Assembly (NCBI RefSeq): GCF_029643425.1
Contig: NZ_CP119106.1
Span: 1,860,001-1,924,000, forward strand
Direction: 5' to 3'
Length of the DNA stretch: 64,000 bases
Origin: Isoptericola sp. AK164
GTDB lineage: Bacteria > Actinomycetota > Actinomycetes > Actinomycetales > Cellulomonadaceae
In this document: positions 665 to 25,596 of the stretch, piece after piece
Numbering within the stretch: position 1 is the stretch's first letter
Layout: each line of letters begins with the position of its first letter
Position numbers and translations under genes: made by a program
The notes under the pieces: generated by a model
Databases searched by the model: none
Seen by the model: only the letters and a program-made list of their open reading frames with translations
What the model was told of the DNA's origin: nothing

Positions 665-2038
665 TCAGCGCTCGGCGGGGTCGGTGACCACGAGCATGAG
701 CACGAGCCCGGCCAGGAGCACGGCGACGATCGCCAGCGTGCCCCAGAGGGTGGCGCCGGTCAGGGCGATCACGGCGGTCCACAGCGCCGGGGTGAGGAAG
801 GAGACGGCGCGCCCGGTGGTGGCGTACAGGCCGAACACCTCGGACTCGCGGCCCGCCGGGGTGACGCGTGCCAGGAAGGACCGGGAGGCGGACTGGGCCG
901 GTCCGACGAACGCGGTCAGCGCCAGGCCGGCGACCCAGAACACGCCGGTGCCCAGGGGGTAGAGCGCCACGATGACGGTGCCGCACAGCACCAGGGCCGC
1001 CAGCGACCACAGGATGACGGTCCGCGGCCCGAGCCGGTCGTCGAACAGCCCGGCGACGATGGTGCTCACCCCGGCGATGAGGTTCGCGGCGATGCCGAAG
1101 ACGATGACCTCGGTGTCGTCGAACCCGTAGGAGACGGCGGCGACGATCGCGCCGAACGTGAACACCCCGGCGAGCCCGTCGCGGTAGACGGCGCTGGCCA
1201 GCAGGAACCAGAAGGTGGTGCGGGCGTGCCGCCACAGGTCGACGACGTCGCGCCACAGCTCGACGTACCCGGCGAAGAACCCCACCCGCGGCCGGTCGGC
1301 GGCGGGCGCCTCCGGCACGCGGCGGAACAACGGCCAGGCGAAGGCCACGGCCCACAGGCCGCACCCGAGGGCGATGGCGCGGTAGCCCCAGCCGTCGGAG
1401 GTGTCCATGCCGAAGAAGTCGGCGCCGTCGGCCACGACGACCAGCACCAGCGCGACGATGCCGCCCACGTACCCCAGTCCCCAGCCGAGCCCGGAGACCC
1501 GACCGACCGTGTCGCGGGTGGAGACCTGGGTGAGCATGGCGTTGTAGTTCACCCCGGCGATCTCCCCCGCCACGCTGCCCAGCGACACCAGCGCGGCCCC
1601 GAGCGCGAAGTACGCCGGGTCGGCCCGCACGAAGCCGAGACCGAACATGGCCGCGACGAGCACCACGGTGCCGCCGGCGAGCCAGGCCTTGCGGCGCCCG
1701 GTGACGTCCGCGCGACGGCCGAGGACCGGGGCGAGCAGCGCGACCAGCACTCCCCCGACGGTGATCCAGGCGCCCAGCCCGCTGGACAGCGTGGCCAGGG
1801 CGCTGTCGCGGGCCGGGTCGTCGGCGGCCAGCGCCGCGGCGTCGGGCTCCAGGAAGGCGTCGCTGGTCAGGTACAGGGCCGTGAACACGAAGGTGACGAT
1901 CACCGTGTTGAACGGCTGGGTCGCCCAGTCCCACAGCGCCCAGGCCACCACCCGGCGGCGGCGCTCGGTCGGGGGCAGCGCGGCGAACGCGGCCGAGGCG
2001 TCGTGGCCCGAGGGTGCCGCCGGTGTGGGGTCGCTCAT
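665..2038 (-). CDS. MFS transporter, UMF1 (Atg22-like) family
   Basis: A 457-residue polytopic membrane protein. The chosen ATG gives MSDPTPAAPSG; in-frame starts further upstream add only low-complexity arginine-rich sequence. The signature VVAWALWDWATQPFNTVI near residue 30 is characteristic of the UMF1/Atg22-like branch of the major facilitator superfamily. About twelve hydrophobic segments follow, with the basic loop GRRADVTGRRK between TM2 and TM3. Substrates of bacterial members are mostly unknown; efflux of amino acids or other small solutes is a guess. It lies 76 bp downstream of the DUF2236 gene on the same strand. Confidence 0.9.
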   Translation of the reverse strand: MSDPTPAAPSGHDASAAFAALPPTERRRRVVAWALWDWATQPFNTVIVTFVFTALYLTSDAFLEPDAAALAADDPARDSALATLSSGLGAWITVGGVLVALLAPVLGRRADVTGRRKAWLAGGTVVLVAAMFGLGFVRADPAYFALGAALVSLGSVAGEIAGVNYNAMLTQVSTRDTVGRVSGLGWGLGYVGGIVALVLVVVADGADFFGMDTSDGWGYRAIALGCGLWAVAFAWPLFRRVPEAPAADRPRVGFFAGYVELWRDVVDLWRHARTTFWFLLASAVYRDGLAGVFTFGAIVAAVSYGFDDTEVIVFGIAANLIAGVSTIVAGLFDDRLGPRTVILWSLAALVLCGTVIVALYPLGTGVFWVAGLALTAFVGPAQSASRSFLARVTPAGRESEVFGLYATTGRAVSFLTPALWTAVIALTGATLWGTLAIVAVLLAGLVLMLVVTDPAER

Positions 2039-2114
2039 GGTCGGTGAGTCTTCCGCATCGCGGTGAACACCGGGTAGCGCGCCACGCAGGCCCGGACGGC
2101 GCGGCCGCCGCGCG

Positions 2115-2990
2115 TCAGGCCGACCGGCGCGGCGGCGGGTCGCCCGCGAGCGCCCAGCGGATCGCCCGGGTGGCCACGTGCCCGCCGGCACGCACGAGGG
2201 CGGGTTCGCCGTGCAGCGGCCAGGGGGCGGGCGTCAGCTCCTGCGCCCAGCGCGGCATCGAGGCGTACGAGGCGGCACCGAGCAGGGTGTAGGGGGCGCG
2301 GGCGAGGCGCGGCAGGGGCGGCTCGGACAGCAGGAAGCGGGCGACGTCGCGGGAGGCGTCGGTGGCCTCGAGCTCGTCGCGGTACTCGCCGAGGGCGGCA
2401 CGCAGCGCGGCGAGGGTGCGCGGCGGCCGCTCGGCGCCGAGCCGGTCGGCGACGGTCGCGGTCTGGGCGAGGTAGGCGTCGCAGCCGGCGCGGTCGAGGG
2501 GGCGGCGTCCGTAGCGCTGGTGGGCGGCGAGGAAACTGTCGACCTCGGCGACGTGCACCCAGCGCAGCAGCCACGGGTCGTCGGCGGCGTAGGGGCGGCC
2601 GTCGGGGGTGACGCCGCGGACGCGGGCGTGCACGGCGCGGACGACGTCGACGGCCTGCTGGGCGTCGTCGGCCGTGGCGAACGTGGTCTCGGCGAGGAAG
2701 GTGCTGGTGCGCCCGAGGCGTCCCCACGGGTCGCCGCGGTAGCCGGAGTGGTCGGCGACGGCGGCCATGGCCAGGGGGTGGAGGGACTGCAGCAGCAGGG
2801 CGCGGACCCCGCCGACGAACATCGAGGCGTCGCCGTGCACGCGGGCGACGGCGGAGTCGTCGGCGAACCAGCGTGGCCCGGGGCTGGTGTGGATGCGTTC
2901 GCGCGCGTCGCGGCCGGCGCTGCCGCCGGAGACCTGTTCGAACAGCAGGCGGCCGGCTCGGCGCTGGAGGCTGCGCAGGGGAGATCGCAC
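2115..2990 (-). CDS. Oxygenase MpaB family protein (DUF2236)
   Basis: A 291-residue protein. The segment SPGPRWFADDSAVARVHGD, then FVGGVRALLLQSLHPLAMAA and GRTSTFLAETTFA, matches the DUF2236/MpaB/latex-clearing-protein family, helical proteins that bind b-type heme in characterised members. A conserved histidine sits in the LHPLAM segment. GTG at 2990 is preferred: a CAGAAT hexamer ends 6 nt upstream (2997-3002) and no ribosome binding site is visible, which suggests a leaderless transcript. The gene is divergent from the alpha/beta hydrolase. Its substrate is unknown. Confidence 0.85.
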   Translation of the reverse strand: MRSPLRSLQRRAGRLLFEQVSGGSAGRDARERIHTSPGPRWFADDSAVARVHGDASMFVGGVRALLLQSLHPLAMAAVADHSGYRGDPWGRLGRTSTFLAETTFATADDAQQAVDVVRAVHARVRGVTPDGRPYAADDPWLLRWVHVAEVDSFLAAHQRYGRRPLDRAGCDAYLAQTATVADRLGAERPPRTLAALRAALGEYRDELEATDASRDVARFLLSEPPLPRLARAPYTLLGAASYASMPRWAQELTPAPWPLHGEPALVRAGGHVATRAIRWALAGDPPPRRSA

Positions 2991-3037
2991 GGCACCATTC
3001 TGCGTGCCCGCGGGCGATGCTCGGGTAGGTTGCCCGT

Positions 3038-3997
3038 GTGCGCGAGGACACCGTGGCGACGACCTGGCGGCGCGACGACCTGCTGGGCGCGCCGTTCGAG
3101 AGCACGGCGCTCGGCGCCGCGACGCTGGTGCGCTCGGCGTCCGCCCCGGCGCGTCCGCGGGCGGTGGTGCTGCACGTGCACGGCTACAACGACTACTTCT
3201 TCCAGGACCACCTCGCCCGCGCCATCGAGGAGCGCGGGCACGCCCTGGTGGCCGTGGACCTGCCGGGGGCGGGACGCTCGCTCGTCGAGGGCCGGGTCCC
3301 GCACTTCGTGACGGACCTGCGCGACCAGGGGCCCGCGCTGACGGCGGCGGTCGGCGCCGCGCGCGAGCTGGCCGGCGGCGCCCCGGTGGTGCTGCACGCC
3401 CACTCCACCGGCGGGCTGCTGGCCGCGCTGTGGGCGCACGCGCACCGCGGCCGCGGCGAGATCGACGCGCTGGCGCTGGACAGCCCGTTCCTGGACCTGC
3501 ACGCCTCGTGGCTGCAGCGCACCCTGGGCACGTGGGTGCTCGACGCCGTCGGGCCGTGGTCGCCGACGGCGGTGCTGTCGGCGACGCCGTCGGTGTACGC
3601 CACCCACCAGCTCGCGGCGCACGGCGGCCGGTGGGAGTTCGACGTCCGGCTGAAGAAGCCTGGCGGCGAGCCGGTGCGGGCGGGCTGGCTGCGGGCGGTG
3701 CGCCGCGGTCAGGCCCGCGTGGCACGCGGGCTGGCGATCGACGTGCCGGTGCTCGTGGCCCGCTCGGACCGGTCGGGGCCGGACTCCGTGGCCAACCCGG
3801 ACCTCGACGTCCAGGACACGGTCCTGGACGTCGCCCAGATCGCCCGGCTGGCCCCGCGGCTGGGCGACCGCGTCGACATGCTGACGGTGCCGGGCGGCGT
3901 GCACGACCTCCTGCTGTCCCGCGAGGAGCCCCGGCTGCGCTACCTCACCGGTCTGATGGGCTGGATGGACGACGTCGTGGCAGGGTCGGGGGCATGA
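3038..3997 (+). CDS. Alpha/beta hydrolase, lysophospholipase-like
   Basis: A 319-residue cytosolic protein. LHVHGYNDYFF (around residue 50) is the oxyanion-hole strand, HAHSTGG (around 120) the nucleophile elbow with the catalytic serine, and VPGGVHDLLLS near the C-terminus supplies the histidine. The overall layout is Hydrolase_4/monoacylglycerol-lipase-like. Its stop overlaps the ATG of the glycerophosphodiester phosphodiesterase gene by 4 bp. The pair could therefore act together in phospholipid or acylglycerol breakdown, removing the acyl chain and then the head group (inference). TAGGTT at 3026-3031 ends 6 nt before the GTG, so the message is probably leaderless. Confidence 0.9.
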   Translation: MREDTVATTWRRDDLLGAPFESTALGAATLVRSASAPARPRAVVLHVHGYNDYFFQDHLARAIEERGHALVAVDLPGAGRSLVEGRVPHFVTDLRDQGPALTAAVGAARELAGGAPVVLHAHSTGGLLAALWAHAHRGRGEIDALALDSPFLDLHASWLQRTLGTWVLDAVGPWSPTAVLSATPSVYATHQLAAHGGRWEFDVRLKKPGGEPVRAGWLRAVRRGQARVARGLAIDVPVLVARSDRSGPDSVANPDLDVQDTVLDVAQIARLAPRLGDRVDMLTVPGGVHDLLLSREEPRLRYLTGLMGWMDDVVAGSGA

Positions 3998-4800
3998 CCC
4001 GCAGCCACACCACGCACCCGTACTTCGATCCGCACCCCGGATCCCCCGGCCGGGGGGTCGTCGCGCTGGCGCACCGGGGCTTCTCCCACGAGCAGCAGAA
4101 CCTCGAGAACTCGATGGCGGCGTTCGCCGCCGCCGTCGACCTCGGCTACGGCTACGTCGAGACCGACGCCCACGGCACCCGCGACGGCGTGGCGGTGGCC
4201 CTGCACGACTCGTCCCTCGACCGCACGACGGACAGCTCCGGCGAGGTCGCCGACCTGACCTGGCAGCAGGTCTCCCGGGCCCGGATCGGTGGCGAGGAGC
4301 CGGTCCCCCGGCTGGACGACCTGCTGGGCACCTGGCCGGACCTGCGCGTCAACATCGACGTCAAGGGCGACTCGAGCATCGAGCCCGTGGCCGAGGCGGT
4401 CGAACGCACCGCGAGCCACGAGCGGGTGTGCGTCACCTCGTTCTCCCCGGGCCGACGCCGGCGGACCCTGGCCAGGATGTCCCGGCCGGTGGCCACCAGC
4501 GCGGGCACGAGCGAGGTGCTCGGGTTCCTCGCGGGAGCCCGACTGCGCGTCCCCGGCCTGGTGCAGCGGGCGCTGCGCGACGTCGCCGCCCTCCAGGTGC
4601 CGCCCGCCCAGGGCGGCGTGACGGTCGTGGACGCCGCCACCGTCGCCGCGGCGCACCGGGCGGGCCGGCACGTGCACGTGTGGACGATCGACGAGCCGGA
4701 CGAGATGCGCCGGCTGCTCGACCTCAACGTCGACGGGATCGTCACCGACCGTGCCGACCTGCTGCGCGACGTGCTGCGCGAGCGCGGCCTGTGGCCCTGA
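3994..4800 (+). CDS. Glycerophosphodiester phosphodiesterase
   Basis: A 268-residue protein of the GDPD family, which hydrolyses glycerophosphodiesters to glycerol-3-phosphate and an alcohol. The diagnostic start ALAHRGF, a conserved E and N in QNLENSMAAF, ETDAHGTRDGVAVALHD (metal and catalytic residues) and the late VWTIDEPDEM and VDGIVTDRAD blocks are all present in order. There is no signal peptide, so it is probably cytoplasmic. The ATG overlaps the hydrolase stop as ATGA, giving translational coupling. A long hairpin follows its stop codon. Confidence 0.95.
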   Translation: MTRSHTTHPYFDPHPGSPGRGVVALAHRGFSHEQQNLENSMAAFAAAVDLGYGYVETDAHGTRDGVAVALHDSSLDRTTDSSGEVADLTWQQVSRARIGGEEPVPRLDDLLGTWPDLRVNIDVKGDSSIEPVAEAVERTASHERVCVTSFSPGRRRRTLARMSRPVATSAGTSEVLGFLAGARLRVPGLVQRALRDVAALQVPPAQGGVTVVDAATVAAAHRAGRHVHVWTIDEPDEMRRLLDLNVDGIVTDRADLLRDVLRERGLWP

Positions 4801-4814
4801 CGACCGATACCGCC

Positions 4815-4877
4815 CGTTGTGGGCATGAAATTCGCAACCCCGAACGGGTTCGGGTTGCAGATTTCATGCCCACAACG
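4815..4877. terminator. Long near-perfect hairpin between convergent genes
   Basis: The arms at 4815-4831 and 4861-4877 are perfect 17-bp complements. After two mismatched positions the stem resumes with 4834-4840 against 4852-4858, then 4842-4845 against 4848-4851. The structure lies between the stops of the GDPD gene and aroB, so it could act as a bidirectional terminator. It has no T-tract and is unusually long and AT-richer than its surroundings, so it may instead be a dispersed palindromic repeat. No second copy was seen in this window. Confidence 0.7.
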
Positions 4878-4891
4878 AGCCGGCGGGCGGG

Positions 4892-6034
4892 TCAGGCGCC
4901 GAGCTGGACGGTGACCCCGGGGCTGCCCGACGGCGGCTCCTTGGAGATCTCCGCGTAGGCGGCGGCCAGCACGGTGGGGTCCGGGCCCTCGAGCCGCACC
5001 GGCTTGGCGACGTCGTCCAGGACGACGAAGCGCAGCAGGTCGCCGCGTGCCTTCTTGTCGCGGCGCATCGCGGCCAGCAGCTGGTCCCACCGGTCCCCGC
5101 GGTACGTGGTCGGCAGCCCGACGGCGGTGAGGATCTCCCGGTGGCGGTCCACGACGGCGTCGTCGAGCTTGCCGCCGAGGCGCCCCAGCTCGGCGGCGAA
5201 GACCATGCCCACGGCCACCGCCGCGCCGTGCCGCAGCTGGTAGCGCTCGACGAGCTCGACGGCGTGCCCGAGGGTGTGACCGTAGTTGAGGATCTCGCGC
5301 AGGCCCTGCTCGGTGAGGTCCTCGCCCACGACGCGCGCCTTGACGCGCACCGACCGCTCGATGAGCTCGGTCAGCACCGCCCAGGTCTCCTCGGTGGCGT
5401 CCGGGCCGGCCCACTCGCGGAGGGCCTCGGCGTGCTCCTCGACCAGCTCGAGGATGCGCTCGTCGGCGATGAAGCCCGTCTTGATCACCTCGGCCATGCC
5501 GGCCACGAGGTCCCATCGCTCCAGCGACTCCAGCGCCGCGAGGTCGCACAGCACCCCGGCCGGCGGGTGGAACGCGCCGACGAGGTTCTTGCCCTCGGCG
5601 GTGTTGATGCCGGTCTTGCCGCCGACGGCCGCGTCGACCATGGCCAGCAGCGTGGTGGGCACGTGCACGACCTTGATGCCGCGCAGCCAGGTGGCCGCGA
5701 CGAACCCGGCCAGGTCCGTCGTCGCGCCGCCGCCGACGGCCACGATCGCGTCGGAGCGCGTGAAGTCCGCCTGGCCCATGACCTGCCAGCAGAACGCCGC
5801 GACCTGGGCGGTCTTCTGCTCCTCGGCGTCCGGCAGCTCGGCGGCGAAGGCCTCGTAGCCCTGGGCGGCCAGGTCCTCGCGCACGGTCTCGCCGGTGGCC
5901 TGCAGCGACGCCGGGTGCATCACCAGCACGCGGCGCACCCCCTCGCCGAGCAGCGTGGGGATCTCCCCGAGCAGGTGGCGGCCCACGACGACGTCGTAGG
6001 GCTGGGCGCCGGACACGGTCACGCGGACCGTCAT
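4892..6034 (-). CDS. aroB: 3-dehydroquinate synthase
   Basis: A 380-residue enzyme that converts DAHP to 3-dehydroquinate, the second step of the shikimate pathway, using NAD and a divalent metal. VGGGATTDLAGFVAATW (NAD-binding), VPTTLLAMVDAAVGGKTGIN, the metal-ligand region EILNYGHTLGHAVE and the late RRDKKARG motif are all present. The ATG has a strong AGGAGG 5 nt upstream and overlaps the aroK stop as ATGA. It is the last gene of the aroC-aroK-aroB run and is followed by the long hairpin. Confidence 0.98.
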   Translation of the reverse strand: MTVRVTVSGAQPYDVVVGRHLLGEIPTLLGEGVRRVLVMHPASLQATGETVREDLAAQGYEAFAAELPDAEEQKTAQVAAFCWQVMGQADFTRSDAIVAVGGGATTDLAGFVAATWLRGIKVVHVPTTLLAMVDAAVGGKTGINTAEGKNLVGAFHPPAGVLCDLAALESLERWDLVAGMAEVIKTGFIADERILELVEEHAEALREWAGPDATEETWAVLTELIERSVRVKARVVGEDLTEQGLREILNYGHTLGHAVELVERYQLRHGAAVAVGMVFAAELGRLGGKLDDAVVDRHREILTAVGLPTTYRGDRWDQLLAAMRRDKKARGDLLRFVVLDDVAKPVRLEGPDPTVLAAAYAEISKEPPSGSPGVTVQLGA

Positions 6035-6558
6035 GAGCGGACCTCCTGAAGGATCTCGTCGGCGACCTCGGCGGCGGTGCGGTCGTCGGACAGCACCGCC
6101 ACGGTGGCCAGCCGTTCGTACGTGGGGCGGCGGGCCTGCATCAGCTCGGCCCACCGGGCGCGCGGGTTGCCGACCAGCAGCGGCCGGGAGCGGTTGAACC
6201 CGACGCGGGGCGCGGCCTGGGCCAGGGACACGTCGAGGAAGACGACCGTGCCGCCGTCAGCGGCGTACCCGGCCAGCGCGCTCTGGGTGTGGGTGTCCAT
6301 GACGGCGCCGCCGCCGAGGGCGAGCACGCCGTCGTGGGTGGCCAGCGCCGTGGTGACGGCCTCGCGCTCCAGGTCGCGGAAGTGCGGCTCGCCGTCGTCG
6401 ACGAAGATGTCGGCGACCGGCTTGCCCGCGGTCGCCTCGACGTCGGCGTCGGTGTCCCGGAACGCCAGGCCGAGGCGCTGCGCCAGCAGGGTGCCGACGG
6501 TGGTCTTGCCGCTGCCGGGCGGGCCCGTGAGCACCACCCGCGGTCGTGTCGCCGTCAT
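6031..6558 (-). CDS. aroK: Shikimate kinase
   Basis: A 175-residue P-loop kinase that phosphorylates shikimate at the 3-hydroxyl. The Walker A motif [11 protein letters not shown] is near residues 12-22, DTDADVE carries the substrate-binding aspartate, LALGGGAV is the glycine triplet that contacts shikimate, and RSRPLL lies in the lid. Start and stop overlap both neighbours by 4 bp (ATGA at each junction), so aroC, aroK and aroB are translationally coupled. Confidence 0.97.
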
Positions 6559-7772
6559 CGCAGCAGCTCGGGGATCGACGCGAGGTAGGACTCGGCGTTG
6601 CGTCGCACCTCGGCCACCGAGTCGCCGCCGAACTTCTCCAGGACGACCTGCGCCAGCTCCAGGGCGACCATCGCCTCGGCGACGACGGCGGCCGGCGGCA
6701 CCGCGCACACGTCTGAGCGCTGGTGGTGGGCGGTGACCTCCTCGCCGGTGGCGACGTCCACGGTCGCCAGGGCGCGCGGCACGGTGGAGATCGGCTTCAT
6801 GGCGGCCGAGACCCGCAGCACCTCGCCGTTGGTCATGCCGCCCTCGATCCCGCCGGCCCGGTTGGAGCGGCGCACGATGCGGCCCTCGGCGTCCCGCGCG
6901 ATCTCGTCGTGCGCGGCCGAGCCCCGGCGCTGCGCGGTGCGGAAGCCGTCGCCGACCCCGACGCCCTTGATCGCCTGGATACCCATGAGGGCACCGGCGA
7001 GGCGGGCGTCCAGCCGGCGGTCGGAGTGGGTGTACGTGCCCAGGCCGGTCGGCACGTCGTAGGCCAGCACCTCCACGACCCCGCCGAGGGTGTCGCCGTC
7101 CTTGCGGCAGGCGTCGATCTCGGCCACCATCGCCTCGCTGGTGGGCCCGTGGAAGCACCGCACCGGGTCCGCGTCCAGCGCGGCGACGTCGTCGGGCGTG
7201 GGCAGGTCGGCGTCCTCGGGGACCTCGACCGGGCCGATCGCGGTGACGTGGCTGACCAGCCGGATGCCGAGCGCCTGCTCGAGGAACTTCGCCGCGGCGG
7301 TGCCGAGCGCCACGCGCGTGGCGGTCTCGCGGGCGCTGGCCCGCTCCAGGACCGGCCGGGCGTCGTCGAAGCCGTACTTGCGCATGCCCACCAGGTCCGC
7401 GTGCCCGGGACGGGGCCGCGTCAACGGGCGGTTGCGGGCGATCTCGCGCTCGTCGCCGGTGCCGGCGTCGCGCAGCAGAGCCTCCCGGGGCACCGGGTCG
7501 GCGGACATCACGTCGACCCACTTGGGCCACTCGGTGTTCGCGATCTCGATCGACAGCGGACCGCCCTGGGTCACACCGTGGCGCAGCCCGCCCAGGACGC
7601 GGACCGCGTCCTTCTCGAACTTCATCCGGGCGCCGCGGCCGTAGCCGAGACGACGCCGGGCCAGGGCGTCCTGGATGTCCGAGGTGACGATCTCCACCCC
7701 GGCGGGCAGGCCCTCCATGAGGCCCACCAGGGCCTGACCGTGCGACTCTCCCGAGGTCAACCAGCGCAGCAT
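6555..7772 (-). CDS. aroC: Chorismate synthase
   Basis: A 405-residue FMN-dependent enzyme making chorismate from EPSP, the last common aromatic step. [13 protein letters not shown] at the N-terminus, [16 protein letters not shown], and the late [11 protein letters not shown] and KPISTVP blocks are the family signatures. CAGAAT at 7780-7785 on this strand ends 7 nt before the ATG and there is no Shine-Dalgarno sequence, so transcription of the aroCKB unit probably begins at or next to the start codon. aroE lies 87 bp upstream. Confidence 0.98.
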
Positions 7773-7859
7773 GGTCGCGATTCTGTCACGCCTGCCCGGC
7801 CTCCGGCGCCGACGGTCGGATGGCGGACGTCACGCGCCGCGGCCCGCGCCGACGGGTGC

Positions 7860-8741
7860 TCAGGCCGCCTCGGCGCCGAGGGCCTGCTGCAGCGCCGCGT
7901 CCATGGCGTCCACCGGTCCGGGTCGGCCGGTCATCAGGCGCACCTGCTCCACGGCCTGGTGCAGCAGCATCCGCTCGCCGCCGACGACGGTGCCGCCGGC
8001 CGCGGCCCAGGCCTGGGACAGCGCGGTGGGCCGCGGGTCGTAGACGGCGTCGAGCAGCACCCCGCCGGCGCGCACGCCCTGGGAGCGCAGCGACGCGGCC
8101 ACGGGGTCGGCGGCGTAGGCCGGCATGGTCGAGACCACCACGTCCGCTCCGGCGAGCACCTCGGGGGCCGTGCCGGCGTCGAGCACCTCGTAGCGGGGCG
8201 TGACGCCCATGCGCGCGGCCGCCTCCTGCAGCGTGGCCGTGCGGGCCAGGTTGCGCGCGAGCACGCGCGGCGCGGTGCAGCCGAGCTCGCCGAGGGCGGC
8301 CAGCGTCGAGGCGGCCGTCGCTCCCCCGCCGAGCACGACGGCGCGCCGCACCGGGGCCGCCAGGGTGCCGTGGCGCTCGGCGAGGCCCTCGCGGATCGCC
8401 TGGACCAGTCCGTGCACGTCGGTGTTGGTGCCCGTCAGGCTCACCCCGCACTGCGCGGGCGACACGAGCACCGTGTTCACGGCACCGACGGCGCGGGCCA
8501 GCGGGTCGACGTGGTCGACCAGCTCCATGACCGCGTGCTTGAGCGGCATCGTCACGCTCAGGCCCGCCCAGGAGAGGTCCAGGCCGCGCACGAGGTCGGG
8601 CAGCTGCTCGACGGTGGTGTCGATCGCCGTGTACCGCCACCCGTCCAGGCCGAGCGCCTCGTAGGCGGCGCCGTGCAGGGTGGGCGAGAGCGAGTGCGCG
8701 ACCGGGTGCCCCAGGACGGCCGCGCGACGGGTCGCGGGCAT
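7860..8741 (-). CDS. aroE: Shikimate dehydrogenase
   Basis: A 293-residue NADPH-dependent reductase of 3-dehydroshikimate. LGHPVAHSLSPTLH binds substrate, SVTMPLKHAVM contains the catalytic lysine, GTNTDVHG follows, and LGGGATAASTLAAL is the dinucleotide-binding loop. Its ATG overlaps the mltG stop by 1 nt (TGATG). It belongs to the long minus-strand run alaS-ruvX-mltG-aroE, a cluster conserved in actinobacteria. The third-position GC is as high as its neighbours. Confidence 0.96.
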   Translation of the reverse strand: MPATRRAAVLGHPVAHSLSPTLHGAAYEALGLDGWRYTAIDTTVEQLPDLVRGLDLSWAGLSVTMPLKHAVMELVDHVDPLARAVGAVNTVLVSPAQCGVSLTGTNTDVHGLVQAIREGLAERHGTLAAPVRRAVVLGGGATAASTLAALGELGCTAPRVLARNLARTATLQEAAARMGVTPRYEVLDAGTAPEVLAGADVVVSTMPAYAADPVAASLRSQGVRAGGVLLDAVYDPRPTALSQAWAAAGGTVVGGERMLLHQAVEQVRLMTGRPGPVDAMDAALQQALGAEAA

Positions 8742-9898
8742 CAGTAGCCGTTCTCCTCCTGCCAGGCACGCAGCTCGGCGACGTTCTGCTGGTGCTCGTC
8801 GAACGTCTCGGCGAACTTGGTCTCGCCGGTGTCGAGGTTCACCGTCGTCCAGAAGATCCAGTCGCCGTCTGCGGGGTCGACGACCGCCTCGACCGAGGCC
8901 GCTCCCGGGTTGGCGATGGGCCCCGGCGGCAGGCCGGCGTGCTGGTAGGTGTTGTAGGGGTTGCTCGGGTCGTTGGTGTCGTCCCGCGTCAGCTCCGTGC
9001 CGGGGATCCCCAGCCCGTAGGCCACGGCGGCGTCGATCTGCAGGCGCTGGTCGACGTCGAGCCGGTTCTCGATGGCCCGGGCCATCCTCGGCCGGTCCTC
9101 GGCCGCCCGCGCCTCGCGCTCGACCAGGGACGCCTTGATCAGGACGTCCTGACGGTCGCCGTTGTCCACGCCGAGCGAGTCGAGCTCGGCCTTGGTCTGG
9201 TCGATCATCGTCGACAGCAGGTCCTCGGCCGTGTCGCCGGGCTGGACCGCGTAGGTCTTCGGGAACAGCCAGCCCTCGGCGTCGCCGTCGGCCTGGCCCG
9301 GCAGCCCGATCTTCTTCGGGGTGCCCAGCGCGGCCTCCATCTCGTCCCGCGTGATCGGCGTGACCGAGGCGACCTTGTCGATGATCTGCTCGACCGTGTA
9401 CCCCTCCGGGATGGTCACGTTGGTCTCGACCTTCTCGTTCGCGACCAGCGACTGCACCGCGTCCGCGGCGCTCATCTGGGTGTACAGCTCGTAGGTGCCG
9501 GGCTGGATGCCCGAGGCGCCCGGCGTGGACTCGAAGGCCTGGTTGAAGGCGCCCACGCTCGCCACGACGTCGGCCTCCTCGAGGACCGACCCCATCATCG
9601 ACCCGGTCGCGCCCTCGGGGATCTCGATCTGCACGGGCTCCACCCCCGGCCCGGCGTAGTCCTCGGGCGCGGAGTCGAAGAGCTCGAATCCGGACAGCAT
9701 GCCGCCGACCCGGTCGATCAGCAGGTAGCCGCCGACGCCGAGCACGCCGAGCAGCACGACGAGGATGATCGCGGTGCGGCGCTGGCGCTGCCGTCGGCGC
9801 TTGCGCGCGGCCCGCTTGCTCGCCGCCGAGCGCGCCCGCGACGTCGACGGCGGCGGTGCCTGCCGCTGGGCGGTGGTGGGCTCGAAGAGTTCCGTCAC
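8741..9898 (-). CDS. mltG: Endolytic murein transglycosylase MltG (YceG-like)
   Basis: A 385-residue protein with a basic cytoplasmic N-terminus (arginine/lysine-rich to about residue 42), one membrane helix (about 43-63) and an extracellular YceG domain. MltG cleaves nascent glycan strands and is thought to set their length. IKASLVEREARAAEDRPRMA holds the catalytic glutamate, and DAAVAYGLG and PYNTYQHAGLPPGPIANPG are the family's C-terminal blocks. The GTG start is preceded by an AAGGA about 11 nt away. It sits between ruvX and aroE, its usual actinobacterial place. Confidence 0.97.
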   Translation of the reverse strand: MTELFEPTTAQRQAPPPSTSRARSAASKRAARKRRRQRQRRTAIILVVLLGVLGVGGYLLIDRVGGMLSGFELFDSAPEDYAGPGVEPVQIEIPEGATGSMMGSVLEEADVVASVGAFNQAFESTPGASGIQPGTYELYTQMSAADAVQSLVANEKVETNVTIPEGYTVEQIIDKVASVTPITRDEMEAALGTPKKIGLPGQADGDAEGWLFPKTYAVQPGDTAEDLLSTMIDQTKAELDSLGVDNGDRQDVLIKASLVEREARAAEDRPRMARAIENRLDVDQRLQIDAAVAYGLGIPGTELTRDDTNDPSNPYNTYQHAGLPPGPIANPGAASVEAVVDPADGDWIFWTTVNLDTGETKFAETFDEHQQNVAELRAWQEENGY

Positions 9899-16234: not shown

Positions 16235-17626
16235 TCAGTCGGCGGAGTCGAGGATCTGCCGGATGCGGTCCAGCCGCTCGGACACCTGGCGCTCGAACCC
16301 GCGGTCGCTCGGCTCGTAGTAGCGCCGACCCGCGAGCTCCTCGGGCAGGTACCGCTGCGCGGCGACGCCGTGCGGCTCGTCGTGGGCGTACCGGTACCCG
16401 GTGCCGTGACCGAGCTTCTCCGCGCCGGCGTAGTGGGCGTCGCGCAGATGGGCGGGCACCACCCCGACCCGGCCGGCCGAGACGTCCGCGAGCGCCGCCC
16501 CGATCCCGGCATAGGCACGGTTGGACTTCGGGGCCGTGGCGAGGTGGACGACGGCCTCGGCGAGCACGATGCGTCCCTCGGGCATCCCGATGAGCTGGAC
16601 GGCCTGTGCGGCCGCCACGGCGGTCTGCAGCGCCGACGGGTCGGCCATGCCGACGTCCTCCGCGGCGGAGATCACGAGGCGGCGCGCGATGAACCGCGGG
16701 TCCTCCCCCGCGGCCACCATGCGGGCCAGGTAGTGCAGGGCGGCGTCGACGTCGGAGCCGCGGATCGACTTGATGAAGGCGGAGACGACGTCGTAGTGCT
16801 GGTCGCCGTCGCGGTCGTAGCGCACGGCGGCGACGTCGACGGCCCGTTCGACGGTGTCGAGGTCGACGGTGACGGGCCCCTCGGGCGCGACCTCGTCGCG
16901 GGCGTCGCTGAGGGCTGCCCCGGCGGCGGCCTCGAGCACGGTCAGGGCCTTGCGCGCGTCGCCGCCGGCCATGCGCACGAGCTGGTCCTCGGCGTCGTCG
17001 GCGAGCGTGACGGCGCCGTCGAGCCCGCGCGCGTCGGCGAGGGCGCGGCGCACGAGACCGCGCACGTCCTCGCCCGTGAGCGGTCGCAGGGTCAGCAGCA
17101 GCGAACGGGACAGCAGCGGGGAGTTGACGGAGAACGACGGATTCTCGGTGGTGGCCGCCACGAGGGTGACCCACCGGTTCTCCACGCTGGGCAGCAGGGC
17201 GTCCTGCTGGGTCTTGGAGAACCGGTGCACCTCGTCGATGAACAGCACGGTCTCCTCGCCGCCGGTGGCCAGGCGACGGCGGGCGTCCTCGATGACCTGG
17301 CGGACGTCCTTGACGCCGGCGGTGACGGCGGACAGCTCGACGAACCGCCGCCCGGAGGTGGTGGCCACGAGGTAGGCCAGGGTCGTCTTGCCGACGCCGG
17401 GCGGGCCCCACAGGATCACGGATCCGGGGGCGGCTCGGCGGGCGGCGTCGTCGGCGGGCTCGACGAGCCGGCGCAGCGGGGAGCCGGGCACGAGCAGGTG
17501 CCCCTGGCCGGTCACCTCGTCGAGCGAGGCCGGGCGCATGCGCACGGCGAGCGGGGCGCCGGCCCCGCGGCGCGCGGTCACCGGCGTGCCGTGCTCACGG
17601 GTGGTCGCGGCGTTGAACAGGTCCAT
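16235..17626 (-). CDS. rarA: Replication-associated recombination protein RarA (MgsA)
   Basis: A 463-residue AAA+ ATPase acting at stalled replication forks, related to clamp loaders. Walker [12 protein letters not shown] (from residue 74), Walker [10 protein letters not shown], sensor ATTENPSF, then the MgsA C-terminal region with [18 protein letters not shown] and [16 protein letters not shown]. The ATG at 17626 gives [13 protein letters not shown] at 17634-17639 on this strand ends 7 nt upstream and there is no Shine-Dalgarno sequence, so it is probably leaderless. The neighbouring SLC13 gene is divergent. Confidence 0.97.
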
Positions 17627-17832
17627 GCGGGCGAGCCTAGTTCGCGCGGCGGGGCGTCGCACACCTGTTCGACGCTGGTCGGGCCCGTGCGCCACGGCCG
17701 TCGGCGCGTCCCCGTGGTCACGACGCCGCGCAGGCGGGTGCCGCTGCTAGCCTGTCGCGGCGGTGCCCGGCCGGCGTTGACCGCTCGGGGGTGCCGGTCC
17801 TTCCTCCCCACTCCGGGACGACAGACAGGGGC

Positions 17833-21527: not shown

Positions 21528-22001
21528 ATGGCCCGCCAGATTGCGACGAACACCACGGTGGAGCGCGACGAGCTCACGGAGTTCTTGCGCAGCCGCCACA
21601 ACGGGGTCCTGGTGACCACCCGCGACGACGGGCGCCCCCAGCTCAGCCCCGTGACTTACGGCGTCGACCCGGACGGCCGGGTCGTCGTCTCGACCTACCC
21701 CGAGCGGGCCAAGGCCGTGAACCTGCGCAAGCGTCCGCAGGTGTCGTTCATGGCCCAGGGCGACGACTTCGGCGACGCCTGGGTGCAGGTCGACGGCACC
21801 GCGGAGGTGCTGGACATGCCCGAGTCGCTGGAGCCGCTGGTGGAGTACTTCCGGGCGGCCGCCGGCAAGGAGCACCCGGACTGGGACGAGTACCGCGAGG
21901 CGATGGCGAAGCAGGACAAGTCCGTGATCCGGATCACCGTCGAGCGCTGGGGCCCGATCGCGACGGGCGGGTTCCCGGCCCGGCTGGTCGAGGAGGGCTG
22001 A
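21528..22001 (+). CDS. PPOX-class F420-dependent oxidoreductase
   Basis: A 157-residue split-barrel protein. FLRSRHNGVLVTTRDDGRPQ, SPVTYGVDPDGRVVVSTYP, KAVNLRKRPQVSFM and VQVDGTAEVLDMP are the standard blocks of the actinobacterial PPOX family (TIGR03618-like), expected to bind F420 or a flavin and reduce unknown substrates. ATG with GAGGAGAG upstream. It is divergent from aspS and runs convergently into the radical SAM gene, with 17 bp between stops. Confidence 0.9.
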   Translation: MARQIATNTTVERDELTEFLRSRHNGVLVTTRDDGRPQLSPVTYGVDPDGRVVVSTYPERAKAVNLRKRPQVSFMAQGDDFGDAWVQVDGTAEVLDMPESLEPLVEYFRAAAGKEHPDWDEYREAMAKQDKSVIRITVERWGPIATGGFPARLVEEG

Positions 22002-22018: not shown

Positions 22019-24160
22019 TCAGAAGAGCGTCGCGGCGCTCCCGGGCTCCCCCGCCGGCGCGGCGGCGACCATCGACCCGGCGGGGTAGTCGGCGTCGCCG
22101 TGCGGGCGCAGGTCGTCGTCGTACCGGCCGGTCGCCCCGGAGGCGGCCCGGTGCCCGGAGTCGGCGAAGCCCCGTTCCTCCAGCAGGGGACGCACCCGCT
22201 GCCACAGCCAGTCCCGGTACCCGTCGTGCGCGTCGGCGCCGCGGGCGAAGACCCGGCGGTACCCCGCCACCCGCTCGGGGTGCTCCCGGGCGAGCCAGCG
22301 CAGGTACCAGTCGCGGGTCCCGGGCTTGAGCCGCAGCGGGACGACGGTCACCCCGGTCGCTCCGGCGTCGGCGATCGCGTCCAGCAGCCGCGTCAGGTGG
22401 TCCGTGGAGTCCGTCAGCCACGGCAGCACCGGGGCGACCATCACCCCGCACGGCAGTCCCGCGGCCCGGATCGCGCGCACCAGGTCCAGGCGCGCCTTGG
22501 GCGTCGGCGTGCCTGGCTCGACCGACTGCTGGAGCTCGACGTCGGCGAACGACAGCGACACGCCGAGGCCGACCTCGACCCGGTCGGCGGCGTCGGCGAT
22601 CAGCGGCAGGTCGCGGCGCAGCAGCGTGCCCTTGGTGAGGATCGAGAACGGCGTGCGGGCGTCCGCGAGCGCCGTGATGATCCCCGGCATGAGCCGGTAG
22701 CGACCCTCGGCGCGCTGGTAGGGGTCGGTGTTGGTGCCCAGCGCGACGGGCTCGCGCCGCCACGAGGGCCTGGCGAGCTCGGCGCGCAGCACCTGGTCGA
22801 CGTTCGTCTTGACCACGACCTGGGAGTCGAAGTCCTCCCCCGCGTCCAGGTCGAGGTACTCGTGCGTCGGCCTCGCAAAGCAGTTGTGAGCGACCACACC
22901 GTTGGCGACGAAGTCGCCCGTACCCGTCGTGATGTCGACCATCTCCTCGTCGAATCCACAGGCTTCGACCGTCACGACACCGAGGTCGACGGAGGTCTTC
23001 AGCGCCATACCTGTCACGGAGAGCTTACGGACGATCGCCGGACGGACGAGTTGGAAGAACCGCTCCCGCGCCGCGAGACCGCCTCGCACACGCACGCACG
23101 TCACGCCGTTCGGTCGTGGAGGCTCGAGCGTGTTGTCCAGGTCGAACCGCCGGAGGGCATCGGCTACCCGGGACAGGATCTCCTCGTCCTTGTTGGAGAT
23201 CCTCAAGATCCCCCGGGAGCAGGAGCCCTCGGCGTCGAAGATCCCTGCCAGGAATCCCCTCGTCCACTCCGCACTCGGCACCGCCGGCCACTCGACCAGC
23301 CCTCTGATCGCATCGACGTCTGCCGTCCGTGCGGTGTGCAGTGCACTCATGGCGCGACGTGTCTCCGACGCGGCCACGAACGGACGACGCCTCGTCACGA
23401 TCCCCTCGGTGGCGAGGTATCGAGCGGTCCGGTCGAGCCCTTCCCGGTCGGCCAGGGCGAGGCGGAACATGCACACGCGGGCACCGCCCCGCGATGTCCT
23501 CGGATAGGTCTTCTCGAAGATCATCCCGTCACGCCGGATCATCCCGGTGAGATAACCGCGCCGGTAGTCGGGCGACTCGGTACTCCCCGTGTCGGCCGCC
23601 GGGCGGCCGGTACCGAACCCCATCAACGAGTCGTTCGTCGTGAGGTACGGGCGCTGCTTGCCCGGTGGCCCGGCCGCGACGTGCTTCCATCCGCGACCAC
23701 GCGCCAGGAACCGATGCTCGGCGCTCGCCACGATCTCGGTGCCGTCGCGCAGGATCACCCGGTAGGCGGGCTTCACCGACGTCCATCGAGCCAGGACCGT
23801 GGTCCCGACGAACCGTCGGTAGGTCCCCTGGCGGCGCGTGCCGACGATCCGGTCACCGACCGAGACCTGGCTGATCGGTTTCTGCGTGCCGTCTGCCATC
23901 AGGACCAGCGTGGACGGAGAGACGCAGTAGGCGCAGGCATGAGAGCAGCCACGGTAGGGGTTGATCGTCCACCGGAACGGCATGCGCGAGGCGGCCGGCA
24001 CCTTGGACAACGCGCTCTTGGCCATCACCTCGTGGAAGGTGATGCCGGCGAACTCCGGGGTGCGCGTGCTGCGCACGAGGCCGAGCCGGGCCAGCCCCGG
24101 GCGCTCCAGACCGGGCAGCGCGCCGTCGTCGGCGGTCGTCGCCTGCCCGTCCCATCGCAC
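22019..24160 (-). CDS. Rv2578c-family (SplB-like) radical SAM protein interrupted by an intein
   Basis: A 713-residue precursor. The exteins (residues 1-78 and 427-713, 365 residues together) match my recollection of M. tuberculosis Rv2578c from the MRW start to the ATLF end, including KTNVDQVLRAELARPSWRRE and GTNTDPYQRAEGRYRLMPG. This is the COG1533 SplB-like group of radical SAM enzymes, related by family to DNA photoproduct lyase. The cluster motif is C72, C76 and a third cysteine, and the intein begins exactly at that third position (C79). After splicing, C427 becomes the third cluster ligand, restoring CSHACAYC-FARPTHEY. GTG 24160 keeps the conserved MRW. A perfect LexA-type palindrome lies 9-24 nt upstream. 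Function is inferred only: DNA-damage-linked radical chemistry. Confidence 0.93.
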   Translation of the reverse strand: MRWDGQATTADDGALPGLERPGLARLGLVRSTRTPEFAGITFHEVMAKSALSKVPAASRMPFRWTINPYRGCSHACAYCVSPSTLVLMADGTQKPISQVSVGDRIVGTRRQGTYRRFVGTTVLARWTSVKPAYRVILRDGTEIVASAEHRFLARGRGWKHVAAGPPGKQRPYLTTNDSLMGFGTGRPAADTGSTESPDYRRGYLTGMIRRDGMIFEKTYPRTSRGGARVCMFRLALADREGLDRTARYLATEGIVTRRRPFVAASETRRAMSALHTARTADVDAIRGLVEWPAVPSAEWTRGFLAGIFDAEGSCSRGILRISNKDEEILSRVADALRRFDLDNTLEPPRPNGVTCVRVRGGLAARERFFQLVRPAIVRKLSVTGMALKTSVDLGVVTVEACGFDEEMVDITTGTGDFVANGVVAHNCFARPTHEYLDLDAGEDFDSQVVVKTNVDQVLRAELARPSWRREPVALGTNTDPYQRAEGRYRLMPGIITALADARTPFSILTKGTLLRRDLPLIADAADRVEVGLGVSLSFADVELQQSVEPGTPTPKARLDLVRAIRAAGLPCGVMVAPVLPWLTDSTDHLTRLLDAIADAGATGVTVVPLRLKPGTRDWYLRWLAREHPERVAGYRRVFARGADAHDGYRDWLWQRVRPLLEERGFADSGHRAASGATGRYDDDLRPHGDADYPAGSMVAAAPAGEPGSAATLF
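22883..23926 (-). mobile_element. Intein with LAGLIDADG homing endonuclease
   Basis: Codes for residues 79-426 (348 aa) of the radical SAM precursor. It starts with Cys (CVSPSTLVLMADG, block A), has block B DGTEIVASAEHRFL with the conserved His, and ends VDITTGTGDFVANGVVAHN (blocks F and G; penultimate His, terminal Asn), followed by Cys+1. Two LAGLIDADG helices are present: GYLTGMIRRDG (residues 202-212, acidic D211) and GFLAGIFDAEG (302-312, acidic E311). Both acidic residues remain, so the endonuclease may be active. Third codon positions look less GC-rich than in the exteins (GGT, GGA, TGT and GCT occur), consistent with horizontal spread. Confidence 0.96.
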
Positions 24161-24168
24161 CCCCGTAG

Positions 24169-24184
24169 TCGAACACGTGTTCGA
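24169..24184. promoter_or_regulatory. LexA (SOS) box over the radical SAM promoter
   Basis: The 16-bp perfect palindrome TCGAACACGTGTTCGA fits the actinobacterial LexA consensus TCGAAC-N4-GTTCGA. On the minus strand it lies between a TTGACC -35-like hexamer (24190-24195) and a weak -10 hexamer TCGACT (24167-24172), with 17-nt spacing. The GTG start begins 7 nt after that -10, so LexA binding would block a leaderless promoter. hisS ends at 24226, in the opposite direction of influence, so the radical SAM gene is the only sensible target. Confidence 0.88.
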
Positions 24185-24225: not shown

Positions 24226-25596
24226 TCACTCCCCCGGCACGACGCGGGGGTGCAGGTCCTCGGCGGACGGCGACCAGGTCGCGGGGTCCGCGGCCGACTG
24301 CTCGCCGGTGCGGATGTCCTTGACCTGGTGCTCCTCGCCCGGGAACCACACGAACGGGATGCCGCGGCGGTCGGCGACCTTGATCTGCTTGCCGAACTTC
24401 GCCGCGGTGGGTGCCACGTCCGTCGGCACGCCCCGGGACCGCAGCGCGGCGGCGACGGCGTCCGAGGCGGCCCGCGAGTCCTCGTCGGTGACGGCGACCA
24501 GCACCGCGGTCGGCACACCCCGGGTCGCGGTCATCAGGCCAGCTGAGAGCACCCGCGAGACCAGGCGCGAGACGCCGACGGACAGCCCGACGCCGGGATA
24601 GGTGTTCTTGCCGTCCGAGGCGAGGGTGTCGTAGCGGCCCCCGGAGCAGATCGAGCCGAGCTGCTCGTGCCCGACCAGGACGGTCTCGTAGACGGAGCCG
24701 GTGTAGTAGTCGAGCCCGCGGGCGATCTTGAGGTCGGCGACCACGACGCCGGGTGCGCGGGCACCCGCCGCCTCGATCAGCGCGCCGAGCTCCGCCAGGC
24801 CGGTCTCGAGCAGGTCCGTGCCGGCGTCGTAGCGCGCGGCGAGCTTGCGCACGTCGTCGACCACGGTGGTGTCGCTGCCGTGGATCGCGGCCAGGTCGAG
24901 GCAGGCCGCGGCCTGCTCGGGCGTGGCGCCCTGCTCGGCGACGAGCAGCGCGGCGACCTTCTCCACGCCGATCTTGTCGAGCTTGTCGATCTGGCGCAGC
25001 ACGCCCTCGACGTCGGTCAGGCCCAGCCCGCGGTAGAAGCCCTCGGCGACCTTGCGGTTGTTGACCAGCACGCGCACCTCGGGCAGGCCCACCTCGCGCA
25101 GCGCGCCCAGGGCCTCGGCCATGACCAGCGGCAGCTCGACCTCGTAGTGGTACGGCAGGTCGCCGGCGCCGACGACGTCGATGTCGGCCTGGACGAACTC
25201 CCGGAACCGGCCCTCCTGGGGCCGCTCGCCGCGCCAGACCTTCTGGATCTGGTAGCGCTTGAACGGAAACGCGAGACGGCCGGCGTTCTCCAGCACGTAC
25301 CGCGCGAAGGGCACCGTGAGGTCGAAGTGCAGCCCGAGCTGCTTCTCGGAGCGCGCGCCGCCGTCGCCCGCCGCGGCGTCGTCACCCTCCTCCTGCAGCC
25401 GCCGCAGGACGTAGACCTCCTTGGACGTCTCGCCCTTGCGCAGCAGCTGGTCGAGCGGCTCGACCGCGCGCGTCTCGATGCCGGCGAACCCGTGCAGCTC
25501 GAAGGTGCGACGCAGCACGTCCAGGACGTGCTGCTCCACCACGCGACCGTCGGGGAGCCATTCGGGGAAACCGGAGAGAGGGGTGACGCGAGCCAT
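24226..25596 (-). CDS. hisS: Histidyl-tRNA synthetase
   Basis: A 456-residue class IIa synthetase. FDLTVPFARYV and KRYQIQKVWRGERPQEGRFREF (split over motif 2), then the histidine-specific ARGLDYYTGSVYE and the C-terminal anticodon-binding domain with AKFGKQIKVADRRG. It starts MARVTPLSGFPEW. The MBL-fold hydrolase gene is 54 bp upstream on the same strand, the usual actinobacterial arrangement. AAGATC six nt before the ATG is a weak candidate for a leaderless -10 box. Confidence 0.98.
   Translation of the reverse strand: MARVTPLSGFPEWLPDGRVVEQHVLDVLRRTFELHGFAGIETRAVEPLDQLLRKGETSKEVYVLRRLQEEGDDAAAGDGGARSEKQLGLHFDLTVPFARYVLENAGRLAFPFKRYQIQKVWRGERPQEGRFREFVQADIDVVGAGDLPYHYEVELPLVMAEALGALREVGLPEVRVLVNNRKVAEGFYRGLGLTDVEGVLRQIDKLDKIGVEKVAALLVAEQGATPEQAAACLDLAAIHGSDTTVVDDVRKLAARYDAGTDLLETGLAELGALIEAAGARAPGVVVADLKIARGLDYYTGSVYETVLVGHEQLGSICSGGRYDTLASDGKNTYPGVGLSVGVSRLVSRVLSAGLMTATRGVPTAVLVAVTDEDSRAASDAVAAALRSRGVPTDVAPTAAKFGKQIKVADRRGIPFVWFPGEEHQVKDIRTGEQSAADPATWSPSAEDLHPRVVPGE

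Follow-up and report, generated by a model that had tools for sequence, protein, structure and literature searches.

A 64,000-nucleotide stretch of the Isoptericola sp. AK164 genome (NCBI RefSeq assembly GCF_029643425.1, contig NZ_CP119106.1, positions 1,860,001 to 1,924,000 of the forward strand; hereafter "the window", whose own numbering is used below) carries a gene for an Rv2578c-family radical S-adenosylmethionine (SAM) protein that is interrupted by an intein of 348 amino acids (aa). Very probably, this is a selfish, class-1-type LAGLIDADG homing intein that cycles through a LexA-boxed, SplB-like host gene at the codon of the third cluster cysteine. Its anatomy can be read to the base, it occupies a single site, it is patchily distributed among related genomes, and a LexA-type box precedes its host gene; homing would presumably proceed by cleavage and repair.

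Inteins of this kind are already catalogued as an annotation class (NF038136), as an earlier sequence-only reading of this DNA had supposed, and the window protein exceeds the curated cut-off of that profile. To this class, the present analysis adds a phage counterpart, the LexA context, an allele series and a G132R substitution in the endonuclease. No paper on the Rv2578c-family intein was found among the openly licensed papers listed, which is not proof of absence; the name Rv2578c itself occurs in a paper on phage Samy and in one on an outbreak strain. One codon offers here a natural series of the intein life cycle, with empty, full-length and mini alleles in related species, and the same catalytic cysteine houses a selfish element both in a gene with a LexA-type box and in one from a phage. 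Two questions become testable: is conditional splicing adaptive or a side effect of where inteins insert, and do phages move inteins from one radical SAM family to another?

Intein Anatomy and Family Membership

The precursor is encoded by an open reading frame (ORF) of 713 aa (22019-24160, minus strand), which starts with GTG and stays open throughout. With splice junctions marked by slashes, its translation reads ...NPYRGCSHACAY/CVSPSTLVLM...GDFVANGVVAHN/CFARPTHEYL..., the N-extein ending in GCSHACAY, the intein beginning with CVSPST and ending with GVVAHN, and the C-extein opening with CFARPTHEYL. The limits of the intein given by the sequence-only reading (22883-23926) are exact, including the Cys1 codon, the terminal Asn and the Cys+1 codon. 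The features are:

22019..24160, minus strand: precursor gene, intein-containing Rv2578c-family radical SAM protein (NF038136, 830.6 bits; NF038135, 513.9 bits)
23927..24160, minus strand: N-extein, residues 1-78, ending GCSHACAY (alignment with empty orthologues)
22883..23926, minus strand: intein, 348 aa, from C1 to H347 N348 (junction reading, profiles, intein alignment)
22022..22882, minus strand: C-extein starting CFARPTHEYL, with the radical SAM domain (PF04055, alignment)
23945..23947, minus strand: codon of C72, first cluster Cys, position -7 (invariant in a 50-row alignment)
23933..23935, minus strand: codon of C76, second cluster Cys, position -3 (50-row alignment)
23924..23926, minus strand: codon of C79, intein Cys1, splicing nucleophile and third Cys of the precursor CxxxCxxC (50-row alignment; 77 inteins)
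22880..22882, minus strand: codon of C427, Cys+1, presumed third cluster ligand after splicing (77 inteins)
23714..23725, minus strand: block B-like S68-A-E-H71 (S68 and H71 invariant in a 22-intein alignment)
22883..22888, minus strand: C-terminal His347-Asn348, Asn codon 22883-22885 (invariant in the 22-intein alignment and 77 inteins)
23525..23554, minus strand: LAGLIDADG motif 1, YLTGMIRRDG, intein residues 125-134, Arg132 codon 23531-23533 (full-length intein comparison)
23225..23254, minus strand: LAGLIDADG motif 2, FLAGIFDAEG, intein residues 225-234 (profile, alignments)

Translation and NF038136 together bear out the earlier placement of the intein at the third iron-sulfur cysteine of an Rv2578c-type radical SAM protein, with an HN/Cys+1 end, Cys1 being the third cysteine of CSHACAYC. 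The accompanying claim that the cluster motif is complete only after splicing has to be given up: C72-x3-C76-x2-C79 already spells CxxxCxxC in the precursor, with Cys1 as its third cysteine, and C79 occupies the place that C427 takes after splicing.

The whole precursor scores above the cut-offs of both NF038136 (intein-containing Rv2578c-family radical SAM protein; 700 bits) and NF038135 (Rv2578c-family radical SAM protein; 430 bits), the latter with its CxxxCxxC present as CSHACAYC, and the intein matches the Pfam model LAGLIDADG_3 (PF14528; 41.4 vs. 22.5 bits). The generic intein models all score under their cut-offs, both on the intein (PF14890, 19.0 vs. 35.8 bits; TIGR01445, 16.6 vs. 24.5 bits) and on the precursor (TIGR01443, 13.9 vs. 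15.6 bits); because the NF038136 cut-off is exceeded, we read these misses as a probable sensitivity limit of the generic models. A PF14890 search for other inteins in the same genome returned no match at E≤0.001, an uninformative result since this model misses the window intein too.

Class 1 inteins are defined by Cys1, the histidine of a block-B TxxH, a penultimate His, a terminal Asn, and Cys, Ser or Thr at +1. All of these residues are found in the window intein, with block B reading SAEH instead of TxxH, and their intactness suggests that splicing follows the usual class 1 pathway. Once the precursor is made, Cys1, the block-B His, His347, Asn348 and Cys+1 would perform ordinary splicing, and the host enzyme would regain CxxxCxxC with Cys+1 as its third ligand.

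Insertion Site and Distribution

Across 156 parsed loci, all 77 inteins interrupt the same cysteine codon, and Cys-7, Cys-3, Tyr-1, Cys1, HN and Cys+1 are present in every one of them, a regularity that chance would not produce; empty orthologues join exactly at the insertion point in the alignment. The sequence-only reading had asked for a comparison of orthologues with and without the intein, and this comparison yields one common site, with another position in 0/77 inteins. The set comprises 79 empty alleles, 49 mini-inteins (146-214 aa) and 28 full-length inteins (294-350 aa); six duplicates (L121, L124-L128), one broken locus (L099) and one interrupted locus (L101) were left out. Beyond the family, empty loci were sampled by hand, and frequencies are given from the family survey only. 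In that survey (150 genomes), 101 genomes match NF038135, 99 of them over the cut-off, and the 100 readable loci divide into 58 empty, 26 mini and 16 full-length alleles, the empty state being the commonest (the broken locus of genome G085, L099, was excluded, and L100 was counted as empty though it lies at a contig end).

Wider sampling led to the same codon. In the order survey (297 genomes), 136 genomes exceed the NF038135 cut-off, and outside the family the matches listed include 11 loci with intein-length spans (L103-L113), all of which were read and carry the same site. The class survey (394 genomes) gave 31 genomes over the NF038136 cut-off. Among named relatives, 78 of the best 80 of at least 485 matches could be parsed, all at the window site, and two were not parsed; the nearest intein within these 80 belongs to Isoptericola sediminis (91% identity, L165), and the window element was probably inherited from a common ancestor with this species. 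In a phylum sample (198 genomes), 47 match the intein profile at E≤0.001, many weakly; five phylum loci besides the window's own share the site at both junctions in three cases and at the N junction only in one, the fifth being unreadable.

A split intein in G085 (L099, G085:C5:42800-44900) was considered and rejected: the C-terminal intein part and the C-extein are joined to a truncated, oppositely oriented zinc-dependent dehydrogenase, which we read as a rearrangement or assembly break, and a search of the genome that had no positive control detected no N-terminal intein part. A contig labelled Stenotrophomonas maltophilia (L176, JACEFY010000027.1) bears the otherwise actinobacterial intein gene, and is probably a contaminant.

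Gain, Loss and Selection

Empty and intein-bearing alleles interleave on an extein tree built from 155 rows without L100, which asks for 29 changes of presence and absence, or 37 when three states are distinguished; the starred branches alone force at least 19 changes for the empty state. An empty allele (G131, the L070/L086 pair) and one with a full intein of 349 aa (G148) differ at only 11 of 1005 extein bases (98.9% identity), within a genus code that also includes Cellulomonas alba, and the empty L016 falls into one group (support 97) with 14 mini-intein alleles, where its exact position depends on weaker branches (88-90). For some rows, the nearest Hint domain and the nearest extein belong to different genera. 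Co-conversion of the flanks is significant in one pair, L030 vs. L009 (15/103 differences near the site vs. 37/902 far from it, p=9.5e-5). Under the homing reading, the endonuclease would spread the intein into empty alleles and decay later, leaving mini-inteins, and empty alleles would reappear.

Judged from codon comparisons, the intein is under purifying selection in the pairs tested. The ratio of non-synonymous to synonymous substitution rates (dN/dS) is 0.08-0.44 for the Hint domain (21 hand-picked close pairs) and 0.12-0.32 for the endonuclease (six hand-picked full-length pairs), with 0.17 in a pair sharing 50 codons. In the genus coded f38g142, 12 of the 12 genomes with a match carry a mini-intein of 152 aa (L130, L132, L133, L135-L140, L142-L144), and these mini-inteins are also under purifying selection (Hint dN/dS 0.18-0.33, five pairs).

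Several observations weigh against the homing reading. Splicing itself is deduced from intact residues. The idea that the intein entered the most conserved DNA of the gene is unsupported, as the insertion point ranks 110-220 among about 980 DNA windows for conservation. The extein tree was built quickly, and 47 of its 152 inner branches stay open. Hint and extein identities are correlated (Mantel r 0.56, with 0/999 permutations as high; Spearman 0.18), and vertical descent is therefore common. General co-conversion of the flanks was rejected, as it is significant in only one of 29 intein/empty pairs, and an excess of differences near the site is also seen between empty alleles (L009/L018, p=0.007; L018/L001, p=0.0085; L007/L018, p=0.012; L084/L082, p=0.036). 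Finally, the retention in f38g142 is a candidate case of domestication or long-term retention, and fits mere irreversibility too.

Host Gene and LexA-Type Box

The host gene follows hisS and converges on an oxidoreductase gene, and carries an exact LexA-type palindrome in front of its start codon:

24169..24184, unstranded: LexA (SOS)-type box TCGAACACGTGTTCGA (exact match; 8 base pairs (bp) before the start)
24226..25596, minus strand: neighbour hisS (TIGR00442)
21528..22001, plus strand: neighbour F420-dependent PPOX-class oxidoreductase, convergent (TIGR03618)

An SOS box at the gene start, the sequence mark of a LexA regulon member, is present, and LexA would be expected to bind this putative box. 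The genome (3,576,703 bp, one contig) contains four exact TCGAACN4GTTCGA sites. Besides the one described, a second overlaps an ORF start, with an IMS-family (ImuB-like) gene coming after that ORF, a third precedes a divergent gene by 29 bp and a DinB-like gene, at its likely start, by about 480 bp, and the fourth overlaps the likely start of a 13E12/HNH-like gene (by eye; no Pfam match). With one mismatch allowed, the box precedes 133 of the 156 loci, window included, about 230-310 bp before the cluster cysteine, vs. 0/156 shuffled regions and 0/156 C-extein stretches; in the sampled loci of group f37g124, presumably Streptomyces, it was found in 0/7. The host enzyme is SplB-like and presumably repairs DNA. 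Two papers report SOS control of SplB-type radical SAM genes in several species, and list a LexA-regulated radical SAM gene of S. venezuelae, vnz_31145, a possible orthologue of the window gene (PMC8565304, PMC9380542).

These data bring up an alternative in which homing is coupled to the SOS response: an endonuclease encoded in a LexA-boxed ORF would be made when RecA-dependent repair is induced, favouring homing, and regulation would have counted no less than sequence in the choice of the niche. The exact box 8 bp before the start, one of only four in 3.58 Mb, the company of ImuB-like and DinB-like genes at other exact sites and the clean controls all speak for this view, but the box is about equally frequent before empty (66/79) and intein-bearing (67/77) loci. 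Since its frequency is alike with or without the intein, the regulation belongs to the host gene, and we regard SOS-coupled homing as unlikely.

Elsewhere in the window, a LexA-like box with one mismatch (TCGCACACCTGTTCGA, 17657-17672) lies inside the first codons of the ORF 16235-17695 (minus strand) as called. By eye, this ORF encodes a RarA/MgsA-type AAA ATPase, and its true start may be further in.

Possible Conditional Splicing

A redox or metal switch, which the sequence-only reading had suggested, we hold to be quite unlikely. A Cys-3/Cys1 disulfide, or zinc or an iron-sulfur cluster on C72-C76-Cys1, would cap the nucleophile, so that maturation of the protein would require a reducing and cluster-competent cell. 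Such a switch is chemically plausible, Cys1 standing in both a CxxC and a CxxxCxxC context. MoaA is also a radical SAM enzyme. An experimental precedent, not named in the sequence-only reading, is the Pyrococcus abyssi MoaA intein, whose Cys-3/Cys1 arrangement is the same: two papers, citing Callahan et al. 2011, report that a disulfide between these residues can block splicing (PMC3922620, PMC10663303). The invariance of Cys-7, Cys-3, Cys1 and Cys+1 in the 77 inteins and in the 50-row alignment, a phage-contig protein included, as well as the SOS-type box at the host gene, can be counted in its favour.

The host enzyme, however, needs these cysteines anyway; because its motif requires Cys-3 and Cys1, their conservation is uninformative, and the MoaA-type pairing of Cys-3 with Cys1, found in all 77 inteins, is forced by it. 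Besides Cys1, the window intein has four cysteines (residues 152, 236, 277, and 323), relatives commonly sharing 236 alone, and 46 of the 49 mini-inteins have none. Empty alleles, the commonest state (58/100 in the family survey), stand beside or among intein clades, and no dependence of the host on the intein was seen. In the AlphaFold2 model, the predicted local distance difference test (pLDDT) is below 50 at residues 71-77 and 428-440, which makes the Cys-3/Cys1 geometry unreadable. Taken together, the sequence evidence does not favour a redox switch over a selfish element.

Phage Counterpart and Other Elements in the Gene

Viral contigs contain 64 loci that match the intein, and only one of them (L245) does so across all 348 residues, with 38% identity. 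Its host is a radical SAM gene adjoining genes for the major head and portal proteins, as judged from PF04055 (32.1 vs. 29.5 bits) and partial matches below cut-off to NF038136, NF033668 and NF038135. The junctions, CSHDCKY/CVGGDT and GVVAHN/CYAKS, fall at the same third cysteine, so that two radical SAM genes, one bacterial and one from a phage, share the intein niche. Among the best 80 of 217 related viral loci, 78 are empty at the site; of the other two, one is the intein-bearing contig itself, and the second, likewise empty, lacks the first cysteine. Two further phage sequences may be recorded here: a radical SAM homologue in which Tyr replaces the first cluster Cys (L385, near 3001; CGYSHDCSY/C), and a relative of the L245 C-extein with 59.7% identity in an unannotated phage record (H21, MT835521.1, 23274-23987).

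A more specific proposal is a cluster-capped intein, in which a [4Fe-4S] species, zinc or a disulfide on the precursor C72-C76-Cys1 could occupy the splicing nucleophile; we find it very doubtful. Its design recurs in the phage radical SAM gene.

In an annotated phage collection, 60 records match the intein, and one does so over at least 80% of its length, Virus Rctr197k (KX853510, L309 1792-5061), which has a helicase host. It was rejected as a second viral radical SAM host, as its host part matches models of SNF2 and phage DNA helicases, the resemblance to NF038136 being confined to the intein part; the annotation "radical SAM protein-like protein" seems to have been carried over from the intein.

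Other mobile elements also enter this gene. Genome G384 (L101, G384:C28:161800-173200, about 947-9660) has its radical SAM gene cut in two by a prophage-like element of 8.7 kilobases that encodes a large serine integrase (phrog_95, PF00239) as well as head proteins (phrog_283). The break falls within the codon region of the second cluster Cys, 6-9 bases upstream of the point where the intein sits elsewhere. The left gene part ends in CACGCGTGCGTG followed by a stop, and the right part begins with CACGCTTGCGTC. Streptomyces phage Samy has been described as integrating into an Rv2578c-family gene, which is inactivated in the native host of the phage at no evident cost (PMC12924846). A Samy attachment site at the cluster motif was considered and rejected: its annotated attachment (att) repeat matches the DTPEF codons, with 1-2 mismatches, in 7/7 f37g124 loci, about 46 codons upstream of the third cluster Cys.

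State of the Window Endonuclease

The intein contains two LAGLIDADG motifs with their catalytic acids, Asp133 and Glu233, and motif 2 (FLAGIFDAEG) is canonical. The sequence-only reading had taken the LAGLIDADG residues to be intact; in motif 1 (YLTGMIRRDG), nevertheless, the small residue expected before the first catalytic Asp is replaced by Arg132, where the same-genus genome (L058) and 26/26 other full-length inteins have Gly (27/27). The window intein also differs at positions 14, 70, and 99, each at least 92% conserved. In the HMMER alignment, the Arg132-Asp133 pair lies opposite the Gly-Asp of the first I-DmoI motif, which fits our assumption that Gly20 of I-DmoI is the residue matching Arg132. 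The equivalent change in I-CreI, G19S, abolishes the activity of the homodimer. By its title, PDB entry 5akm is a G20S variant of I-DmoI, which has Gly before the first catalytic Asp whereas the window intein has Arg. One such change can be tolerated, to judge from one paper that lists G19S I-CreI in a cleaving heterodimer (PMC6035192). The window endonuclease is probably impaired through the lineage-specific G132R, next to a Hint domain that is strongly constrained.

A degenerate element, with splicing lost and the gene dead, is extremely improbable: G132R and the window/L058 endonuclease dN/dS of 0.32, the highest value (0.12-0.20 in the other five full-length pairs), would suit it, but the splicing residues are all intact, the frame is open throughout, and dN/dS in the same pair is 0.08 for Hint and 0.11 for the extein.

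Comparison with Known Systems

Within the NF038136 class, family, site and architecture are like those of the window protein, without any essential difference, the window intein having 348 aa vs. about 259 matched model positions (76-334). At the level of sequence, its solved relatives are the DnaB and gp41-1 inteins and I-DmoI, and Foldseek places PI-SceI and other VMA inteins, PI-PfuI and I-DmoI among the top matches; the LAGLIDADG endonucleases I-DmoI and PI-SceI resemble the window intein in fold and sequence. Samy and the intein are both site-specific mobile elements of the same gene, Samy relying on a serine integrase and seemingly using another place in it. The Mycobacterium tuberculosis SufB and mycobacterial DnaB inteins are likewise actinobacterial, and have been studied for conditional splicing, in other hosts and at other sites than the window intein. 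The P. abyssi MoaA intein shares Cys-3 and Cys1 with it, whereas host family and organism differ.

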